A DNA stretch of 64,000 nucleotides. Origin: an uncultured Flavobacteriaceae bacterium. Lineage in GTDB: Bacteria > Bacteroidota > Bacteroidia > Flavobacteriales > Flavobacteriaceae. This document shows, in pieces, positions 36,193 through 50,828 of the stretch. The notes under the pieces were generated by a model, which saw nothing but the letters and a program-made list of their open reading frames with translations, ran no database searches and was not told where the DNA came from. The stretch spans positions 1 through 64,000 of the forward strand of contig CANMSN010000006.1 of NCBI GenBank assembly GCA_947500585.1, written 5' to 3'. The position numbers and the translations under genes are program-made. Positions within the stretch are counted from its first letter, which is position 1; each line of letters starts with the position of its first letter.

Positions 36193-39100
36193 TTATGCTG
36201 TTGTTAATTCTTCTACCATTGGTTCTTCAGTCTCAATACGTATTAACGCACGCTTGTATTCTGTTGGCATCACTCTTACAAAGTTTCCTAAACTAGTCTC
36301 CCAATTATCTAATAATCTTGTGGCTAGTTTACTATCAGTATATAATTTATGTTTTTCAATCAAGCTTTTTAAATCGGCAGCATCTTCTGCTAAAATATCT
36401 TCAAACTCAATAGTTTCTGTGTTGCATAAACCGTTTACAAATTTATTTTCAGGGTCGTAAACATAAGCAATACCACCGCTCATTCCTGCAGCAAAGTTTC
36501 TTCCGGTGTTACCTAAAACAACTACTTTTCCTCCCGTCATATATTCGCAGCAGTGATCTCCAACACCTTCTACAACTGCAGTTGCACCAGAATTTCTAAC
36601 GGCAAAACGTTCACCTGCAATACCGTTTATATAAGCTTCACCTTGTACGGCACCAAATAAACAAACATTACCAATAATGATGTTTTCTTCTGCAACAAAA
36701 TCAGCTTTCACTGGTTTTTTAACAATTAATTTGGCCCCAGATAATCCTTTACCTAAATAATCATTCGTATTACCTTCAAGTTTAAAAGTTAAACCGTGTG
36801 CTCCAAAAGCTCCAAAACTCTGACCTGCAGATCCTGTAAAATTGATGTTTAAAGTGTTTTCAGGTAATCCTAAATGTCCGTAAATTTTAGAAATCTCGTT
36901 ACTAACAATAGCGCCTACGGTTCTGTTGGTGTTTTTTATAGGATAAGCAAGCGTCATTTGCTCTTTTCTATATAAAGCTCTATGCGAATCTTTTAATATG
37001 GTAAAATCTAAAACATTATCTATATCATGCTGTTGTTTTTGTGTGTTTTTAACAGTCATGTTTCTGTAAGCCGTAGGACGATGTAAAATACTAGATAAGT
37101 CTAAACCTTTTGCTTTATAATGTTTTATAGCACTATTAGCATTAATTTTATGTGTTTGTCCTACCATTTCACCTAAAGTTCTAAATCCTAATTGCGCCAT
37201 AATACCACGCAATTCTTCGGCTATATAGTAGAAGAAATTAATAACATGTTCAGGTGTTCCTTTGAAGTTTTTACGTAACTCTTTATCTTGTGTTGCAATA
37301 CCAACAGGGCAGGTATTCAAATGGCATTTACGCATCATGATACATCCTGAAGCCACCAAAGGCGCAGTTGCAAAACCAAACTCTTCAGCACCGAGTAATG
37401 CTGCAATAGCTACATCTCGACCAGTTTTTAATTGACCATCACATTCTACAACAATTCTGCTTCGTAAGTTATTTAAAACTAAGGTTTGTTGTGCTTCAGC
37501 TAAACCAAGTTCCCATGGCAAGCCTGCATGTTTTAATGAGGTTAAAGGGGATGCTCCCGTTCCGCCATCATAACCAGAAATCAATACAACATCTGCTTTT
37601 GCTTTGGCTACACCAGCTGCTATGGTTCCAACACCAACTTCTGACACTAATTTCACATTAACTCGAGCTTCACGATTTGCATTTTTTAAATCGAAAATAA
37701 GTTGCGCTAAATCTTCAATTGAATAGATATCGTGATGCGGTGGTGGCGAAATTAAGCCTACAAAAGGCGTTGAGTTTCTTGCAGCGGCAATCCAAGGTAA
37801 TACTTTGTAGCCTGGTAATTGACCACCTTCTCCTGGTTTTGCACCTTGAGCCATTTTTATTTGAATTTCTCTCGCATTAGTTAAATAATGTGAAGTCACT
37901 CCAAAACGACCAGATGCTACTTGTTTTATGGCAGAATTTCTACTATCTCCGTTTATATCTGGATGAAAACGGTTTCTGTCTTCACCACCTTCACCAGAAT
38001 TAGATTTACCTCCAATTCGGTTCATGGCAATCGCTAAATTTTCGTGGGCTTCTCTGGAAATTGATCCGTAAGACATGGCGCCTGTTTTAAAGCGTTTTAC
38101 GATTTCTGTCCATGGTTCTACTTCTTCAATAGGAATTGGGTCTAAATTATCAAACTCAAATAAGCCACGAATGGTCATTAAATTTTCTGCTTGTTCGTTT
38201 ATAGCTTTCGAATACACATCGTAACTAGCTTGATCACTCAATCTAACGGCTTGCTGTAATTTGGCAATAGTGGTTGGGTTGAATAAATGGCGTTCACCAT
38301 TACGTCTCCATCTATAATCGCCACCAATATTCAATCCTAAATTTTTATCAATAGTATTATCTGGATAGGCTTGTTTGTAGCGTTGGTCAATTTCTTTTTC
38401 AATTTCATATAAGCCAATACCTTCAATTCTGGAAGCAGTATATGGGAAATATTTTTCAACAAATTGAGAGTTAAAACCAACTATTTCAAAAATTTGAGAA
38501 CCTCTGTAAGAATGTAATGTTGAGATTCCTATTTTGTTCATTATTTTTAAAATACCTTTTCCTATGGCTTTGTTAAAATTATCAACTGCTTTTTGCTCGT
38601 CCATTTCGGTTATAAAACCTTCTTTTACTTGCATTCTGATAATTTCATTCACCATATATGGGTTTATAGCACTAGCGCCATAACCAAACAATGTTGCAAA
38701 ATGATGCGGTTCACGAGGTTCTGCAGATTCGATAATGATATCGAAATAAGAACGCTTACGTAAACGATTTAATTGATGATTTACGTATGAACATGCTAAT
38801 AATGCTGGAATTGGCGCAAAATCTTTATTTACACCTCTGTCCGAAAGAATAATAATATTTGTTTTACGCTCTAATGCTTTTTCAATTTGGATAATAATAT
38901 CATCTAAAGCATCTTCAAGACCATTAAGTCCTTGAGCTTTTGGATATAATATTTCAATAGTTTCAGCTTTAAAGGCCTCTATTGAAATGCTTCTAATTTT
39001 TTCTAAATCGGCATTAGAAATAACAGGGTTTTGTATTTTTAATTTTCTACACTGCCTTTCGGTAATGCTGAAAATATTTCTGTCTTTTCCTAGATTTAAG

Positions 39101-40707
39101 CTAATATCTGTTACAATTTCTTCACGAATTCCGTCTAAAGGCGGATTGGTAACTTGAGCAAATAATTGCTTAAAATAATTTGAAATAAGCTGAGGTCTGT
39201 CTGATAAAACGGCTAAAGGCGTATCAATTCCCATAGAGCCTAAGGCTTCTTTACCAACAATTGCCATAGGTGTTATAACCTCTTGGATGTCTTCAAAAGT
39301 ATAGTTAAATAAACGTTGCCTTGTTTTAATATCAATCGTTTCAATTGGGCAAGTTTCATTGGTGTAAGGCACATCTTTTAAATGTAATCTTGTTTTTTCT
39401 AACCACGCTCTATATGGCCTTTCAGAAACAATTTTACTTTTAATTTCTTCATCTTTGATGATGCGTCCTTTATTCATATCTACCAAGAACATTTTTCCTG
39501 GTTCTAGTCGACCATGACTTTCAATATCTTCAGGTTCAATATCAACCACTCCAATCTCAGATGACATGATTAATTTTCCGCTTTTAGTAACGGTATATCT
39601 CGAAGGTCTTAGTCCGTTTCTGTCTAAAAGTGCGCCAATATAATCGCCATCTGTAAACGGTACAGAAGCAGGGCCATCCCAAGGCTCCATAATGCAAGCG
39701 TTGTATTCGTAAAATGCTTTACGTTCATCAGACATGGTTTTGTGCTTTTCCCATGCTTCAGGAATCATCATCATCATAATTTCTGGTAATGAACGTCCTG
39801 TATGTGTCAATAATTCAACAACCATATCCATGGATGCAGAATCTGATTTTCCTGGTAAAATAATTGGAAATAACCTGTCTATTTGCGGGCCAAAAACATC
39901 ACTTCTCATGATTTCTTCTCGAACGCGCATTCTACTCACATTACCACGTAGGGTATTAATCTCTCCATTCTGACACATAAAACGGAAAGGCTGCGCTAAT
40001 TCCCAAGTAGGCATTGTATTAGTTGAAAAACGCTGATGTACTAATGCTAAGCGCGTTACAAGGTCTATTTGTTGTAAATCAGTATAGTAAGGGCCAATGT
40101 CTTCAGGCATTATTATACCCTTGTATATTAAGGTTGTTGTTGATAAACTTGGGAGGTAAAAATAAGAGCTTTCAGATATTTTAGAGTTTCTTATTTCGTG
40201 CTCGGTAATTTTACGAGCAGCATATAATTTTGCTTTAAAAGTAGCCTCATCAATAGGTTCTTTTTTTCCAACAAAAATTTGCTCAATATTAGGTTCAGAA
40301 GCCTTTGCTATTTCGCCTAATTGTGTAGAATCTACAGGTACTTTTCGCCATCCTAAAACAGTAAGTCCTTGCTCTACAATTTCTTTTTCAAAAGTGTCTT
40401 TACAAAATTGATATTGGTTTCTAACTTTAGGTAAAAAAACCATACCTACAGCATACTCCCTTGGAGCAGGAATTGGAAACCCGCTAACACGTGTAAAATA
40501 CTCATGCGGGATATCAATTAATAAACCAGCACCATCACCTGTTTTTCCATCGGCACTAACACCGCCTCGGTGTTCTAGTTTTACTAGAATTTCCAGAGCA
40601 TCATGTATAATTTGATTGGTCTTTTCTCCTTTAAGATTACAGATAAAACCTGCGCCACAATTTTCGTGTTCAAATTCAGGCAAATAGAGTCCTTGTTTCT
40701 TCAGCAT
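36193..40707 (-). CDS. gltB: Glutamate synthase large subunit
   Basis: GltB moves the amide nitrogen of glutamine to 2-oxoglutarate. I start at ATG 40707, which gives 1504 residues and puts the amidotransferase nucleophile in [10 protein letters not shown] at Cys17, after a 16-residue propeptide that should be cut off; the longer frame uses TTG. Class II glutaminase fills about residues 17-410, the linker domain continues to about 800, the FMN-binding synthase domain has [10 protein letters not shown] and the 3Fe-4S motif CHLNTCPVG, and the C-terminal beta-helix (GXGXG-type repeats) fills the last 250. It is divergent from the porin-amt-PII cluster across a 460-base regulatory gap. Confidence 0.97.
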
Positions 40708-41028
40708 AATCAGCAATTTTTATTAAAAAATTTGAGTCGGAATGTAAAGATATGCACTAGAAATTGAAATACAATAAGGGGTATTTCATTATTTCGATTT
40801 TAGAAGCGAAGGGAAGATAAAAATAATTATATATCAATAATACATAAATATTTTAATAAATATTCAATCGTTAAATATTTAACAATAAATGCACATTTGT
40901 TAATTAACCTCAATAAAACCTCAGATTATTAAAAATAATGTCATTAAAAAATAAAAAATACTAATAATAATTCAAATTATTAGTTTGTTGAAAAATCAAA
41001 AAATCAAAAAAAAACGAGAATACCTCTA

Positions 41029-41086
41029 AAAAAATAGGGTAAAAAATGAAATATTGATAAAAGTTATCCAAATAGCCCTATTTTTT
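41029..41086. promoter_or_regulatory. Outer inverted repeat before the porin-amt genes
   Basis: AAAAAATAGGG (41029-41039) and CCCTATTTTTT (41076-41086) are perfect 11-bp complements separated by 36 bases. Together with the second repeat at 41091 they form two adjacent dyads. They may be paired regulator sites; they lie upstream of the probable transcription start. Confidence 0.5.
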
Positions 41087-41090
41087 ATGG

Positions 41091-41121
41091 GGGTTAAAAC
41101 TTTTTAGCATAGTTTTAACCC
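41091..41121. promoter_or_regulatory. Inner inverted repeat over a -7-like box
   Basis: GGGTTAAAAC (41091-41100) and GTTTTAACCC (41112-41121) form a perfect 10-bp dyad with an 11-base spacer. TAGTTTTA at 41110-41117, one base from the TAnnTTTG consensus, lies in its right arm, so a protein bound here would block or steer the porin-amt promoter. A hairpin in the leader RNA is the alternative. Confidence 0.55.
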
Positions 41122-41170
41122 ATTCTTAAGGAAATTAACCAAAGAAATTAATAACTAAAATTTAAACATT

Positions 41171-42202
41171 ATGAAAAAATTTATTACACTTTCAATGCTT
41201 TTTATGGCAACAGCCTTATTTGCACAAGAAGAGGAAGCAACTACTCCTTCGTTTACGATAAGTGGTAGTGTTGATGCTTATTACAGAGCTAATTTGAACG
41301 CCCCAAATGATGAAGCTGCAGTGGCTCCTGGTTCTTCTTTTGCTAACCTGCCTGGATTTGCTTTAGGTATGGCAAATGTAGTGTTTGCTTATGAAGGTGC
41401 AAAAGCAGGTTTTGTAGCAGACTTAGTATTTGGGCCAAGAGGTGCTGATGCAGTATTTAATTCTCCCCAGTTAGATCCATTTTACAGATCTTCGAACATA
41501 GTAAATCAATTATACGCTTACTGGAATGTTAGTGAGTCTGTAACATTAACAATGGGTAACTTCAATACCTTTTTAGGTTATGAGGTAATTTCTCCAACGG
41601 CAAACTTTAACTACAGTACATCTTATTTATTTTCTTATGGTCCTTTTAGTCACACTGGATTAAAAGCAGACATAGCCTTATCTGATGATTTTAGCTTAAT
41701 GTTAGCTGTTATGAATGATACTGATTTAACTGAATTTAACTCAACTGGAGATTATGCATTTGGAGCACAATTAGGATTTGCTGGTCAATACTTAAACTTT
41801 TTATTAGATCCTACATTTACTGAAATCGATTTTACAGGTGGATTTGATTTATCTGATGATTTCTTTTTAGGAATCAATGCTGCTTATTTAAGTCTTGAAG
41901 ATGATGCTGGAGGATTTATGGGTGCTGCTTTATATCCGCAATATGCTTTAAGTGATACATTTACTTTAGGTTTAAGAGGAGAGTATTTTGCAGAAGATAA
42001 AGATTTTGGAGCTATAGGCACTGGGGTAGAAGATTCTTCAGTATTTGCAACTACTTTAACTGCAAGTTTCGCTATTGATAATTTAACTATCAAGCCTGAA
42101 TTGAGATTAGATTCTGCTTCTGATGACTTTTTCTTAGATTCAGACTTAGCTGCTCAAAAAAGCTTAAGTTCTTTTGTAATAGCCGCTATCTACTCATTCT
42201 AA
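41171..42202 (+). CDS. Outer-membrane porin, OmpL/BBP2-like
   Basis: A 343-residue outer-membrane beta-barrel: signal peptide MKKFITLSMLFMATALFAQ, then alternating strands throughout and a terminal aromatic residue (IAAIYSF), as needed for insertion by the BAM complex. It looks like the beta-barrel porin-2 (BBP2) family. Its place directly before amt, with divergent gltBD, suggests it lets ammonium or small nitrogen compounds through the outer membrane under nitrogen control. That role is inference from context. A hairpin separates it from amt. Confidence 0.85.
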   Translation: MKKFITLSMLFMATALFAQEEEATTPSFTISGSVDAYYRANLNAPNDEAAVAPGSSFANLPGFALGMANVVFAYEGAKAGFVADLVFGPRGADAVFNSPQLDPFYRSSNIVNQLYAYWNVSESVTLTMGNFNTFLGYEVISPTANFNYSTSYLFSYGPFSHTGLKADIALSDDFSLMLAVMNDTDLTEFNSTGDYAFGAQLGFAGQYLNFLLDPTFTEIDFTGGFDLSDDFFLGINAAYLSLEDDAGGFMGAALYPQYALSDTFTLGLRGEYFAEDKDFGAIGTGVEDSSVFATTLTASFAIDNLTIKPELRLDSASDDFFLDSDLAAQKSLSSFVIAAIYSF

Positions 42203-42220
42203 ATACAAAACAATATTACC

Positions 42221-42253
42221 ACATACCCGTTTTTTAACCAAAAACGGGTATGT
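42221..42253 (+). terminator. Hairpin between porin and first amt
   Basis: A 13-bp stem ACATACCCGTTTT with its complement and a 7-base loop lies in the intergenic gap. There is no T-run after it on the + strand, so it more likely protects the porin mRNA end or lowers read-through than stops transcription fully. Confidence 0.55.
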
Positions 42254-42296: not shown

Positions 42297-43562
42297 ATGT
42301 CTTTATTAAACATGCCCCTTATAATTCAAGATACTGCCGCTGTTGAAGGCGATATGGGAATGCTTTGGATGCTATTATCTGGTATCTTAGTATTCTTTAT
42401 GCAGGCTGGATTTACACTTGTTGAATCTGGAATGACGCGCGCAAAAAACGCTGTAAACATTGCAATGAAAAATTTGCTTGATATATGCGTAGGATCATTA
42501 ACCTTCTGGTTTGTAGGTTATTCATTAATGTATGGTGATACTACCAACGGATGGTTTTTCTGGGGAGGTTTCATGCAAGGTGAAGGCGCAGATTTATTCT
42601 TCCAAACTATGTTTGCTGCAACAGCTGCTACTATCGTTTCTGGTGCTATAGCAGGAAGAACTAAATATACAACCTATGCTATATTTTCAGTTATTATGAC
42701 TGCAATCATCTACCCAATTGCTGGCGGATGGCAATGGCAAGGTTCTGGTTGGTTAACCGAACTAGGATTTATTGATTTTGCTGGATCTTCTATTGTACAC
42801 TCTGTTGGTGGATGGGCTGCACTTGTAGCTGCATTTATGGTAGGGCCAAGAATTGGTAAATATGTAAACGGAAAAGTAATGCCAATACCAGGACACAATC
42901 AAATCTTAGCTACTTTAGGTGTATTTATCCTTTGGTTAGGATGGTTTGGTTTTAATGGTGGTTCTCAATTAGCTTGGGGTGGTGATGACGCTACTGGTGC
43001 TTCAAACGTCGTGCTAATTACAAATTTAGCTGCTGCTGCTGGTGCTTTAGGTGCACTAATTACAACTTGGATTTGGTACGGAAAACCAAACTTAGGTCAA
43101 ACATTGAACGGTGCTTTAGCTGGTTTAGTAAGTATTACTGCTGGTTGTGGAAACATGACAGATGGAGGTGCTGTATTAGCAGGTCTTGTAGGTGGTATTC
43201 TAGTGGTATTCTCAATTGAGTTTATTGAGAAAAAACTTAAAATTGATGATGCTATTGGTGCTGCATCTGTACACGGCGTTGCCGGTGCTTGGGGTACTTT
43301 AGTAATTGGTCTTTGGGGTGTTGATGGCGATACTGCTATTGGATTATTCAATGGTGGCGGTGCTACACAATTAGGCGCTCAAGCAACTGGAGTTTTAGCT
43401 TATGCCGTATGGTCTGTTGTTTTATCTTTTATTGTATTCGGTATACTAAAAGCAACTCTAGGATTGCGTGTTACTGAAGAAGAAGAAATACAAGGCCTTG
43501 ATATTTCTGAGCACGGTTCTATAGCGTATCCAGGTAAGAGACAAAGAGAAATGGAAGATTAA
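42297..43562 (+). CDS. amt: Ammonium transporter (first copy)
   Basis: Amt proteins are trimers that move ammonium across the inner membrane. The 421-residue chain has about 11 helices. The twin-histidine pore residues are His168 (SIVHSVGG) and His326 (SVHGVAGAW); ATIVSGAIAGR and NGALAGLVSITAGCGN are family marks. The C-terminal tail GLDISEHGSIAYPG is the PII-binding region of family members. It starts with a short extension (MSLLNMPLIIQDTAAVEG). PII and a second Amt lie downstream. Recognition by this PII is expected but inferred. Confidence 0.95.
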   Translation: MSLLNMPLIIQDTAAVEGDMGMLWMLLSGILVFFMQAGFTLVESGMTRAKNAVNIAMKNLLDICVGSLTFWFVGYSLMYGDTTNGWFFWGGFMQGEGADLFFQTMFAATAATIVSGAIAGRTKYTTYAIFSVIMTAIIYPIAGGWQWQGSGWLTELGFIDFAGSSIVHSVGGWAALVAAFMVGPRIGKYVNGKVMPIPGHNQILATLGVFILWLGWFGFNGGSQLAWGGDDATGASNVVLITNLAAAAGALGALITTWIWYGKPNLGQTLNGALAGLVSITAGCGNMTDGGAVLAGLVGGILVVFSIEFIEKKLKIDDAIGAASVHGVAGAWGTLVIGLWGVDGDTAIGLFNGGGATQLGAQATGVLAYAVWSVVLSFIVFGILKATLGLRVTEEEEIQGLDISEHGSIAYPGKRQREMED

Positions 43563-43603
43563 TTTTTTCTCAGATCTATCTTAAATTTATAAACTATATT
43601 AAT

Positions 43604-43635
43604 AAAGATGCCTTATTTAATTTTAAGGCATCTTT
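43604..43635 (+). terminator. Hairpin between first amt and PII gene
   Basis: A 12-bp stem AAAGATGCCTTA with its complement and an 8-base loop, without a full T-run, lies 40 bases after the amt stop. It may reduce transcription into glnK. Confidence 0.55.
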
Positions 43636-43723
43636 ACTATTAAAAAAGGTAGTTTATTAGGTGGTTTTATATAACATCTAATTTTCCTAATTTTGAGCGA
43701 ACTAAACGAAATATAATATTATT

Positions 43724-44062
43724 ATGAAGAAAATTGAAGCGATTATTAGAAAATCAAAGTATCGTGTGGTTAAAGAAGCATTACATGATGTTGGTGTAAA
43801 TTTTTTCTCTTACTGGGATGTTACTGGTTTAGGAAATGAAAAAGAAGGTCATGTTTACAGGGGTGTTTCTTACAGCACTAGTGATATACAACGTAGATAC
43901 CTTTCTATTGTAGTAAACGATGATTTTGCTGAAACAACAATTCAAACAATTATCAGTTCTGCAGGAACTGGTGAAGTAGGTGATGGTAAAATTTTTGTGT
44001 CAGACGTACAAGAATGCTATAGAATACGAACAGGAGAAAAAGGCGGAGACACACTAAAATAA
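43724..44062 (+). CDS. PII signal-transduction protein, variant T-loop
   Basis: PII trimers sense ATP/ADP and 2-oxoglutarate and gate Amt channels. The 112 residues keep the core (MKKIEAIIRKSK, TGEVGDGKIFV, YRIRTGEKG) and Tyr50 at the place of the E. coli uridylylated Tyr51 (YRGVSY). Yet the T-loop is one residue shorter before Tyr45, Gln39 is replaced by Glu39 in GLGNEKEG, and Lys58 appears as Arg57 (IQRRYL). Gln39 coordinates Mg2+ and Lys58 pairs with 2-oxoglutarate in classical PII, so ligand sensing may differ. The gene lies between two amt genes. Whether it is GlnB or GlnK cannot be decided, though linkage to amt suggests GlnK. Confidence 0.9.
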   Translation: MKKIEAIIRKSKYRVVKEALHDVGVNFFSYWDVTGLGNEKEGHVYRGVSYSTSDIQRRYLSIVVNDDFAETTIQTIISSAGTGEVGDGKIFVSDVQECYRIRTGEKGGDTLK

Positions 44063-44088: not shown

Positions 44089-45318
44089 ATGGAATTATTA
44101 ACAACGAATAATGTATGGATGATGATCTGTACAGCACTAGTTTTCTTTATGCATACAGGTTTTGCATTTTTGGAAATTGGACTAACTAGACAAAAAAATA
44201 CAATAAACATATTATTTAAAAACATTTTTATTATTACTGTTGGCCTTCTGCTATATTACTTAATTGGGTTTAACTTAATGTATCCTGGTTTTGCTGAAGA
44301 CTCTATGGGAATTATTGATTTTTCAGGATTTGGTATTGCACCACCTGAAAATGGAATGACGCCAGAGTATGCTGATGGTGGTTATACCTGGTGGACAGAT
44401 TTCTTGTTTCAAGGTATGTTTGCAGCTACTGCAGCAACTATTGTTTCAGGAGCTGTAGCTGAGCGTATGAAAATAGGAGCGTTTATGATTTTTGTAGTTA
44501 TATATGTAGGATTAGTTTACCCAATTGCTGGCTCATGGAAATGGGGCGGTGGATTCTTAGACGGGTTAGGGTTCTACGATTTTGCTGGTTCTACCTTAGT
44601 GCACTCAGTTGGTGGTTGGGCTGCTTTAGTAGCAGTTTGGTTACTAGGTTCTAGAATAGGTAAGTTTGGAAATGACGGTAAGCCTCAAGCTATACCAGGT
44701 CACAACATCCCATTAGCAACTGCAGGTGTTTTAATCCTTTGGTTAGGATGGTTTGGTTTTAATGGAGGTTCAGTACTTTCAGCAGATCCAGAATTAACAT
44801 CGTTAACATTAGTAACAACCTGTTTAGCAGCTGCAGCAGGAGGCGTAGTAGCAATGATAACTTCTACAATAATGTATAAAAACCTAGATTTAACAATGTT
44901 TTTAAATGGTATTTTAGGTGGGTTAGTAAGCATTACTGCTGGAGCAGATGTAATGACTCCTGAGAGTGCTATTTTAATTGGTGCTATAGGAGGAATACTT
45001 ATTGTTTTTGCAGTTGCCTTTATTGATAAAATAAAATTAGATGACCCAGTTGGTGCTATAGCTGTGCATTTGGCATGTGGTATTTGGGGAACACTAGCCG
45101 TTGGAATTTTTTCAACAAACCCAGAGCATACATTTTCAGCACAATTAATAGGTGTGTTATGCTACGCTGGAATATGTATAGTATCTTCTTTCATAATATT
45201 CTTTTTGCTTAAGAAAACAATTGGTATTAGAGTATCGGAAAAAGAAGAATTAGAAGGCTTAGATATGCATGAACATGGTATGGATGCCTATCCAGATTTT
45301 AGATTAAACGAACGTTAA
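44089..45318 (+). CDS. amt: Ammonium transporter (second copy)
   Basis: A 409-residue Amt with the twin histidines His172 (TLVHSVGG) and His327 (AVHLACGIW). It differs clearly from the first copy in loops and helices, so this is an old duplication or separate lineage. The C-terminus ends GLDMHEHGMDAYPDF, matching the PII-contact tail of the first copy. It begins 26 bases after the PII gene, so they are probably one transcript. Two Amts may have different affinities; that is inference. Confidence 0.94.
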   Translation: MELLTTNNVWMMICTALVFFMHTGFAFLEIGLTRQKNTINILFKNIFIITVGLLLYYLIGFNLMYPGFAEDSMGIIDFSGFGIAPPENGMTPEYADGGYTWWTDFLFQGMFAATAATIVSGAVAERMKIGAFMIFVVIYVGLVYPIAGSWKWGGGFLDGLGFYDFAGSTLVHSVGGWAALVAVWLLGSRIGKFGNDGKPQAIPGHNIPLATAGVLILWLGWFGFNGGSVLSADPELTSLTLVTTCLAAAAGGVVAMITSTIMYKNLDLTMFLNGILGGLVSITAGADVMTPESAILIGAIGGILIVFAVAFIDKIKLDDPVGAIAVHLACGIWGTLAVGIFSTNPEHTFSAQLIGVLCYAGICIVSSFIIFFLLKKTIGIRVSEKEELEGLDMHEHGMDAYPDFRLNER

Positions 45319-50552: not shown

Positions 50553-50828
50553 AATCTATAAATTTTAGTAATCTTAAATGTACTTATTTTTTTTGAATTT
50601 TCCTAAAAATGTATTTCTAGGCATCTTAACTATCCAAAAAATATAGATTTCATAATATTCAATTAAAATTCTAAGATTAAAAAAAAGAACTTTGTAAGAC
50701 CTCAAATATTTGATTAGAAGTAATCGATTGTGTGTATATTATGTCAAACGCAAATAATTAGCATTCTTTTAAGAGATTAAATGTTAATTTTTCATAGTTT
50801 TAGCCCCTGAAAATAAATTAAATAAAAA

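Follow-up and report, generated by a model that had tools for sequence, protein, structure and literature searches.

The intergenic region between the divergent glutamate synthase gene gltB and the porin-amt1-PII-amt2 operon of an uncultured Flavobacteriaceae bacterium is the control region of that operon, and it carries two copies of one palindrome, sites A and B, followed by a -7 box. Comparison with related loci indicates that the two sites and the box form one conserved module, which stays with ammonium-transport operons as the gene order changes. A and B probably represent a pair of DNA sites for a putative regulator, and we consider it likely that they are operators of one nitrogen regulator. 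The DNA analysed, referred to as the window, is a stretch of 64,000 nucleotides (contig CANMSN010000006.1, positions 1 to 64,000).

The presumed operon lies on the plus strand. Its first gene encodes a beta-barrel porin (BBP2, OmpL-like; 41171-42202; PF07642, 231 bits) and is followed by the ammonium transporter gene amt1 (42297-43562; PF00909, 389 bits), a PII signalling protein gene (43724-44062; PF00543, 80.6 bits) and a second ammonium transporter gene, amt2 (44089-45318; PF00909, 391 bits). The gene for the glutamate synthase large subunit, gltB, is on the minus strand (36193-40716; PF00310, PF01645, PF04898 and PF01493). Stem-loops occur between porin and amt1 (42221-42253) and between amt1 and PII (43603-43636), and where relatives have amt ahead of porin, a CGGAGCG...CGCTCCG stem-loop separates the two genes. 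These intergenic structures possibly serve mRNA processing or partial termination.

A first-pass annotation of the window had described two adjacent dyads at this porin-amt promoter, the second of 10 bp, and read their arrangement as a regulatory switch. Both are directly confirmed in the sequence, except that the second is 11 bp long. The first pair links 41029-41039 (AAAAAATAGGG) with 41076-41086 (CCCTATTTTTT), complementary at 11 of 11 positions across a spacer of 36 nt. The second consists of 41091-41101 (GGGTTAAAACT) and 41111-41121 (AGTTTTAACCC), with a spacer of 9 nt, and its right arm does overlap the -7 box TAGTTTTA (41110-41117). The two pairs sit in the 454-bp region between the divergent transcription units. 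Dinucleotide shuffles of this region (n = 1000), scored for perfect 11-bp pairs with three or more G/C and arms no more than 60 apart inside the 454 bp, gave at least one pair in 0.4% of cases and at least two in 0.2%.

The relatives separate the two dyads. From the best 80 of 149 porin relatives, 27 loci were aligned with the window to give 28 rows, in which the alignment of the upstream DNA runs from site A to the -7 box and no gap exceeds 1 bp. Across these rows 248 of the 308 cells of the first pair are complementary, compared with at most 202 when the arms are slid. The pair is perfect in eight rows, and a spacing of 33-36 from the G-run to the C-run (three or more bases each) is kept in 26 of the 28, the window among them. 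The annotation had made its proposal depend on conservation in relatives, and for the first pair such conservation is found. The idea of a switch is supported; its anatomy has to be redrawn, the units being two copies of a palindrome of about 21 bp, TACCCCTA-AT-rich-TAGGGGTA. Distal site A (TACCTCTAAAAAAATAGGGTA) occupies 41021-41041 with its centre at 41031, proximal site B (AGCCCTATTTTTTATGGGGGT) occupies 41074-41094 with its centre at 41084, and neither is assigned a strand. The centres are 53 bp apart in the window, about five turns, and about 52-53 bp apart in the conserved module as a whole. Read on the plus strand, the first pair joins the inner half of A (its right half, 41029-41039, the left arm) to the inner half of B (its left half, 41076-41086, the right arm), and it is the G-run/C-run spacing of these arms that is conserved.

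Over the 28 rows the profile of site A holds 25.5 bits (41020-41045) and that of site B 26.7 bits (41072-41097), the most conserved columns being G/C positions. Position weight matrices score site A at 35.7 and site B at 36.9 in the window, with the caveat that they derive from the same 28 rows they describe. Column frequencies also mark GATAAAAGT between the sites (41056-41064, plus strand), within which AAAA at 41059-41062 is identical in all 28 rows. This segment is a possible contact for the alpha-CTD of RNA polymerase.

The second dyad (41091-41101/41111-41121, no strand assigned) is perfect in one row, that of the window itself. We rejected it as a conserved operator and judge it incidental. 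Its arms are nevertheless perfect over 11 bp, chance would rarely produce two pairs of this kind here, and pairing over the 28 rows reaches 173 of 308 cells against at most 129 for slid versions. This excess is explained by two fixed elements, the end of site B forming the left arm and the -7 box the right. The dyad moreover lies almost entirely 5′ of the predicted transcription start and would therefore hardly be transcribed. An independent role for it, as operator or RNA hairpin, is largely refuted by non-conservation, and we regard it as very unlikely.

The -7 box (41110-41117, plus strand) starts 26 bp 3′ of the centre of B. Its assignment relies on column conservation, on distance statistics and on the Bacteroidota -7 consensus TAnnTTTG, as given in an excerpt of the source (PMC7366714); TAGTTTTA matches this housekeeping feature except at the last base. 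The box would place the transcription start near 41121-41125. The -33 feature TTG/TTTG is lacking, with TTG anywhere in 41080-41095 in only four of 28 rows. Its lack is not decisive, given that Flavobacterium johnsoniae yielded no -33 motif either, according to the same excerpt (PMC7366714).

The -7 box has a bearing on a further observation of the first-pass annotation, that a phrase from this promoter recurs before a TPR-like gene at about 50.8 kb. The phrase, CATAGTTTTARCCC, does occur at exactly two places, 41108 and 50793. With up to two mismatches it is found at four places, a number reached by five of 100 shuffles, and the copy at 50.8 kb is the -7 element common in Bacteroidota. Boxes like TATAGTTTTRGC are kept at this promoter in several relatives, and the upstream stretches that were read showed no palindromes of the A/B kind by eye. 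With AATTAGCATNTTTTTAAGAG ... TTAATTTTTTATAGTTTTRGC kept in its closest relatives, the region before the TPR-like gene (50730-50815) is a separate conserved promoter without the palindromes.

Is the module tied to ammonium transport? Upstream regions could be assessed at 75 of the 80 loci, one having no called porin ORF and four having short upstream DNA. Tandem sites 50-55 bp apart are present at 46 of 71 amt/PII-linked loci, a range set after the spacing was seen in the alignment, to which 27 of the 80 loci belong. Eleven of the 71 have sites but no tandem pair, and 14 have no site. Porin loci without amt (n = 4) have no sites. The control regions, taken upstream of other ORFs called at these loci, contain no tandem pair (0/248), although we caution that these controls are often coding and less AT-rich, with an AT content of 0.68 over 257 regions of the control type against 0.79 in the 28 aligned promoters. 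A single weak match at the threshold used occurs in 65 of the 248, so that a single site is weak evidence. We note that porin paralogues with neither amt nearby nor sites occur in L038, L039, L041 and L044, and that a link between this porin and ammonium uptake is not universal.

Gene order among the 80 loci is varied: porin first beside gltB, PII-amt-porin, amt-porin-PII-amt and porin-amt-PII-amt-gltB. The first gene of the 46 tandem loci is porin in 26, PII in 13 and amt in seven. TAnnTTTR lies 24-28 bp past the centre of B in 38 of these 46 promoters (porin 22/26, PII 11/13, amt 5/7), and where an exact TAnnTTTG is found 12-60 bp downstream of B (n = 15) all instances fall at 24.5-27. At one locus, L121, three consecutive sites follow each other at intervals of about 51-54 bp. 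Some relatives carry an internal site before PII; in the window none was seen at 43563-43723, nor is there a matrix match above 13 there. Turning to the other side of the intergenic region, gltB was rejected as a target in the clade of the window, the upstream comparison showing a different conserved element. The gltB promoter (40717-40830, minus strand) displays a conserved AAAATCGAAATAATGAAAT and a TATCTTWGC-like -7 region. In loci L108 and L123 a palindrome site is located 289 bp before gltB.

Searching 149 Flavobacteriaceae genomes for TACCCC-W10-GGGGTA with up to one mismatch gave 42 matches in 36 genomes, compared with nine for the reversed control. Thirty-six adjoin nitrogen-assimilation genes and six are within ORFs. 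The former are next to the glutamine synthetase genes GSII and/or GSIII (14), PII-amt (nine), porin/gltB (seven), gltB alone (two), alanine dehydrogenase (three) and another Amt (one). Neighbours were identified by blastp to the window proteins and by reading of sequences, with Pfam checked for one GSII, one GSIII and one alanine dehydrogenase. At locus L114 the site overlaps a 146-aa ORF, which we took as spurious because the site is 53 bp before PII. At the level of sequence, these matches show that the module recurs at other nitrogen-assimilation genes. Where promoters have an exact TAnnTTTG, which several do not, the distance to it can be compared. In PII promoters the proximal site is at 25-26.5 and the distal site at 77-79, in GSII promoters the full site is at 77-78.5, and in Flavobacteriaceae GSIII promoters the site is at 26, 45, 45 and 47, values that differ by about two turns.

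In the genome to which the window belongs, the GSII/GSIII intergenic region repeats the layout of the window with one full site, a half site recognised by eye and a TATATTTG box. Beyond the amt and GS promoters no site stands out among the places read in that genome and match counts are near the control. ACCCC-W10-GGGGT with up to two mismatches is found at nine places per strand against six in the control, the place with a single mismatch (L082) being inside an ORF, and ACCCN{10,13}GGGTA gives 14/15 against 12/15.

Could the A-tract palindromes be architectural, for bending or a nucleoid protein, or simply chance in AT-rich DNA? The region is AT-rich and there are A/T tracts within each site. 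Conservation is highest at the G/C positions, though, the shuffle controls and control upstream regions speak against chance, and the intergenic palindrome matches adjoin nitrogen genes. We consider this explanation extremely unlikely.

The strict 22-bp palindrome is not enriched across the class, with 13 matches in 247 Bacteroidia genomes against 28 for the control. GSIII was found in 68 of 70 class genomes, and 64 of 65 upstream regions were counted, GSIII not being found for L202; the GSIII start of L187 was misassigned in one reading. A run of at least four G separated by 34 or 35 bases from a run of at least four C (G4+-N34/35-C4+) is present upstream of GSIII in 11 of 64 Bacteroidia regions, from nine families; in 200 shuffles the count averages 0.3 and never exceeds two. 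One of the 11 (L206) resembles a terminator hairpin, making 10 of 64 the cautious count, and the regions are not independent because GSIII promoters share ancestry. The typical arrangement is TTTTAGGGGGTGTTAATAAAA ... ACCCCCTTTTTT and then TAnnTTTG. If runs of three are allowed there are 16 pairs, 15 of them at 34 or 35, and an exact -7 box is downstream in ten of the 16. By eye, about half of the GSIII regions have no clear element. A search of 149 class genomes for AGGGGGTGTTRATAAA with up to one mismatch gave 42 matches against 31 in the control, both strands included; ten of 30 loci read, and eight of nine exact matches (one by coordinates only), are upstream of GSIII. In L212, L213, L201 and L221 the DNA between the half-sites has a central inverted repeat of its own, AAAAAGT..ACTTTTT or similar (by eye). 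Among L181-L203, a cluster of 14 ORFs that encode an apparently exported protein with TPRs is found downstream of GSIII and on its strand, an unexplained conserved neighbour.

Taken with the Flavobacteriaceae data, the balance tips modestly towards the element being one operator of a general Bacteroidia nitrogen-control system, in which one putative regulator would read paired G-run/C-run half-sites across a fixed 34-36-bp gap and control glutamine synthetases, GOGAT, PII, ammonium transporters and alanine dehydrogenase. If so, in Flavobacteriaceae the half-sites would have been completed to two palindromes five turns apart.

How might the sites act? In Prevotella ruminicola, transcripts of amtB, glnK, gltBD and glnN are reported to respond strongly to ammonium, with the direction inconsistent between passages of that source (PMC5552732). 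For the window we lean slightly towards activation. One dimeric regulator would bind A and B on the same helix face, with B near -37 and A near -90 relative to the predicted start, a geometry that fits a class-II activator with a helper site. Under nitrogen limitation it would recruit RNA polymerase, the alpha-CTD perhaps resting on the conserved AAAA between A and B. An activator that contacts RNA polymerase is favoured because the -7 distance is fixed across different first genes, the sites are five turns apart and the AAAA is conserved.

A possible, if somewhat doubtful, account is that the sites bind a repressor and the operon is shut off when nitrogen is in excess, with B covering the -33 region and blocking RNA polymerase while A stabilises the complex. 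For the GSIII promoters of other families repression is the favoured reading because the half-site is closer to the -7 box; the first C falls 12-16 bp before it in eight of the ten with an exact box, about two turns nearer than in the window. In L190 and L201 the -7 box precedes the C-run. The Flavobacteriaceae promoters point the other way. A -7 distance of about 26 bp, held across different first genes in 38 of 46 promoters, has the strictness expected of RNA polymerase contact, and the GSIII positions differ by about two turns. For the window, activation is the reading that we slightly favour.

The identity of the putative regulator was sought among neighbouring genes. No regulator gene was recognised by eye directly beside the Flavobacteriaceae palindrome matches or downstream of the intergenic AGGGGGTGTTRATAAA matches, nor beside GSIII among the neighbours listed, except for an HTH_XRE-like protein in L197. 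In L267 a protein resembling a cyclic-nucleotide-binding regulator is encoded 561 bp from a AGGGGGTGTTRATAAA match inside an ORF. The Lrp/AsnC gene downstream of some amt-porin loci (cluster c7) is a conserved neighbour in 13 of 80 loci, and a homologue 65% identical is present in the genome of the window. A match at E ≤ 1e-25 is found in only one of 70 class genomes, that same genome, although a strongly diverged orthologue would be missed, and this scarcity argues against c7 as a class-wide regulator. Since the element is present in GSIII promoters of other genomes among those 70, it is very unlikely that c7 encodes the protein in question.

NtcA, a CRP-family regulator of cyanobacteria, binds GTA-N8-TAC at class-II promoters of nitrogen-assimilation targets such as amt and glnA/glnN. 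The likeness is in the targets and in the class-II layout, with a palindrome preceding the -10/-7 element, whereas here there are two copies at five-turn spacing and the NtcA site occurs in none of the 28 rows. GlnR and TnrA, of the MerR family in Firmicutes, exert nitrogen control over glutamine synthetase and ammonium uptake through TGTnA-N6/7-TnACA boxes; the control is alike but the boxes are missing here (0/28 rows). NtrC with sigma-54 places glnK-amtB under nitrogen-limitation control from promoters with the consensus TGGCWC-N4/6-TTGC. That full consensus is absent from all 28 rows and the loose form GG-N10-GC is in two, the window included; a housekeeping -7 box is conserved here instead of a -24/-12 promoter. 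The lux box (ACCTGTA-N6-TACAGGT) is similar in half-site spacing only, and neither it, NarL 7-2-7 heptamers nor the CRP box occurs in any of the 28 rows.

Within the phylum, the Bacteroides Crp/BT4338 consensus is wwwTATGTTnTAnAACATAwww, as quoted in excerpts of two sources (PMC3878776, PMC6989115). It too is a 22-bp palindrome near a -7 box, but its own targets concern carbohydrate and its core is missing here, the site TATGTTnTAnAACATA, tested as TATGTT-N4-AACATA, being found in 0 of 28 rows. Among the matches listed from open-licence literature no description was found of this motif, of a Bacteroidota nitrogen regulon or of its regulator. The putative regulator could be sought with the element as a defined bait, helped by the target list and the promoter geometry that it provides, and the Bacteroidota concerned matter in sea and gut. 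If the proposal is correct, the system would be the Bacteroidia counterpart of NtrC, GlnR or NtcA.
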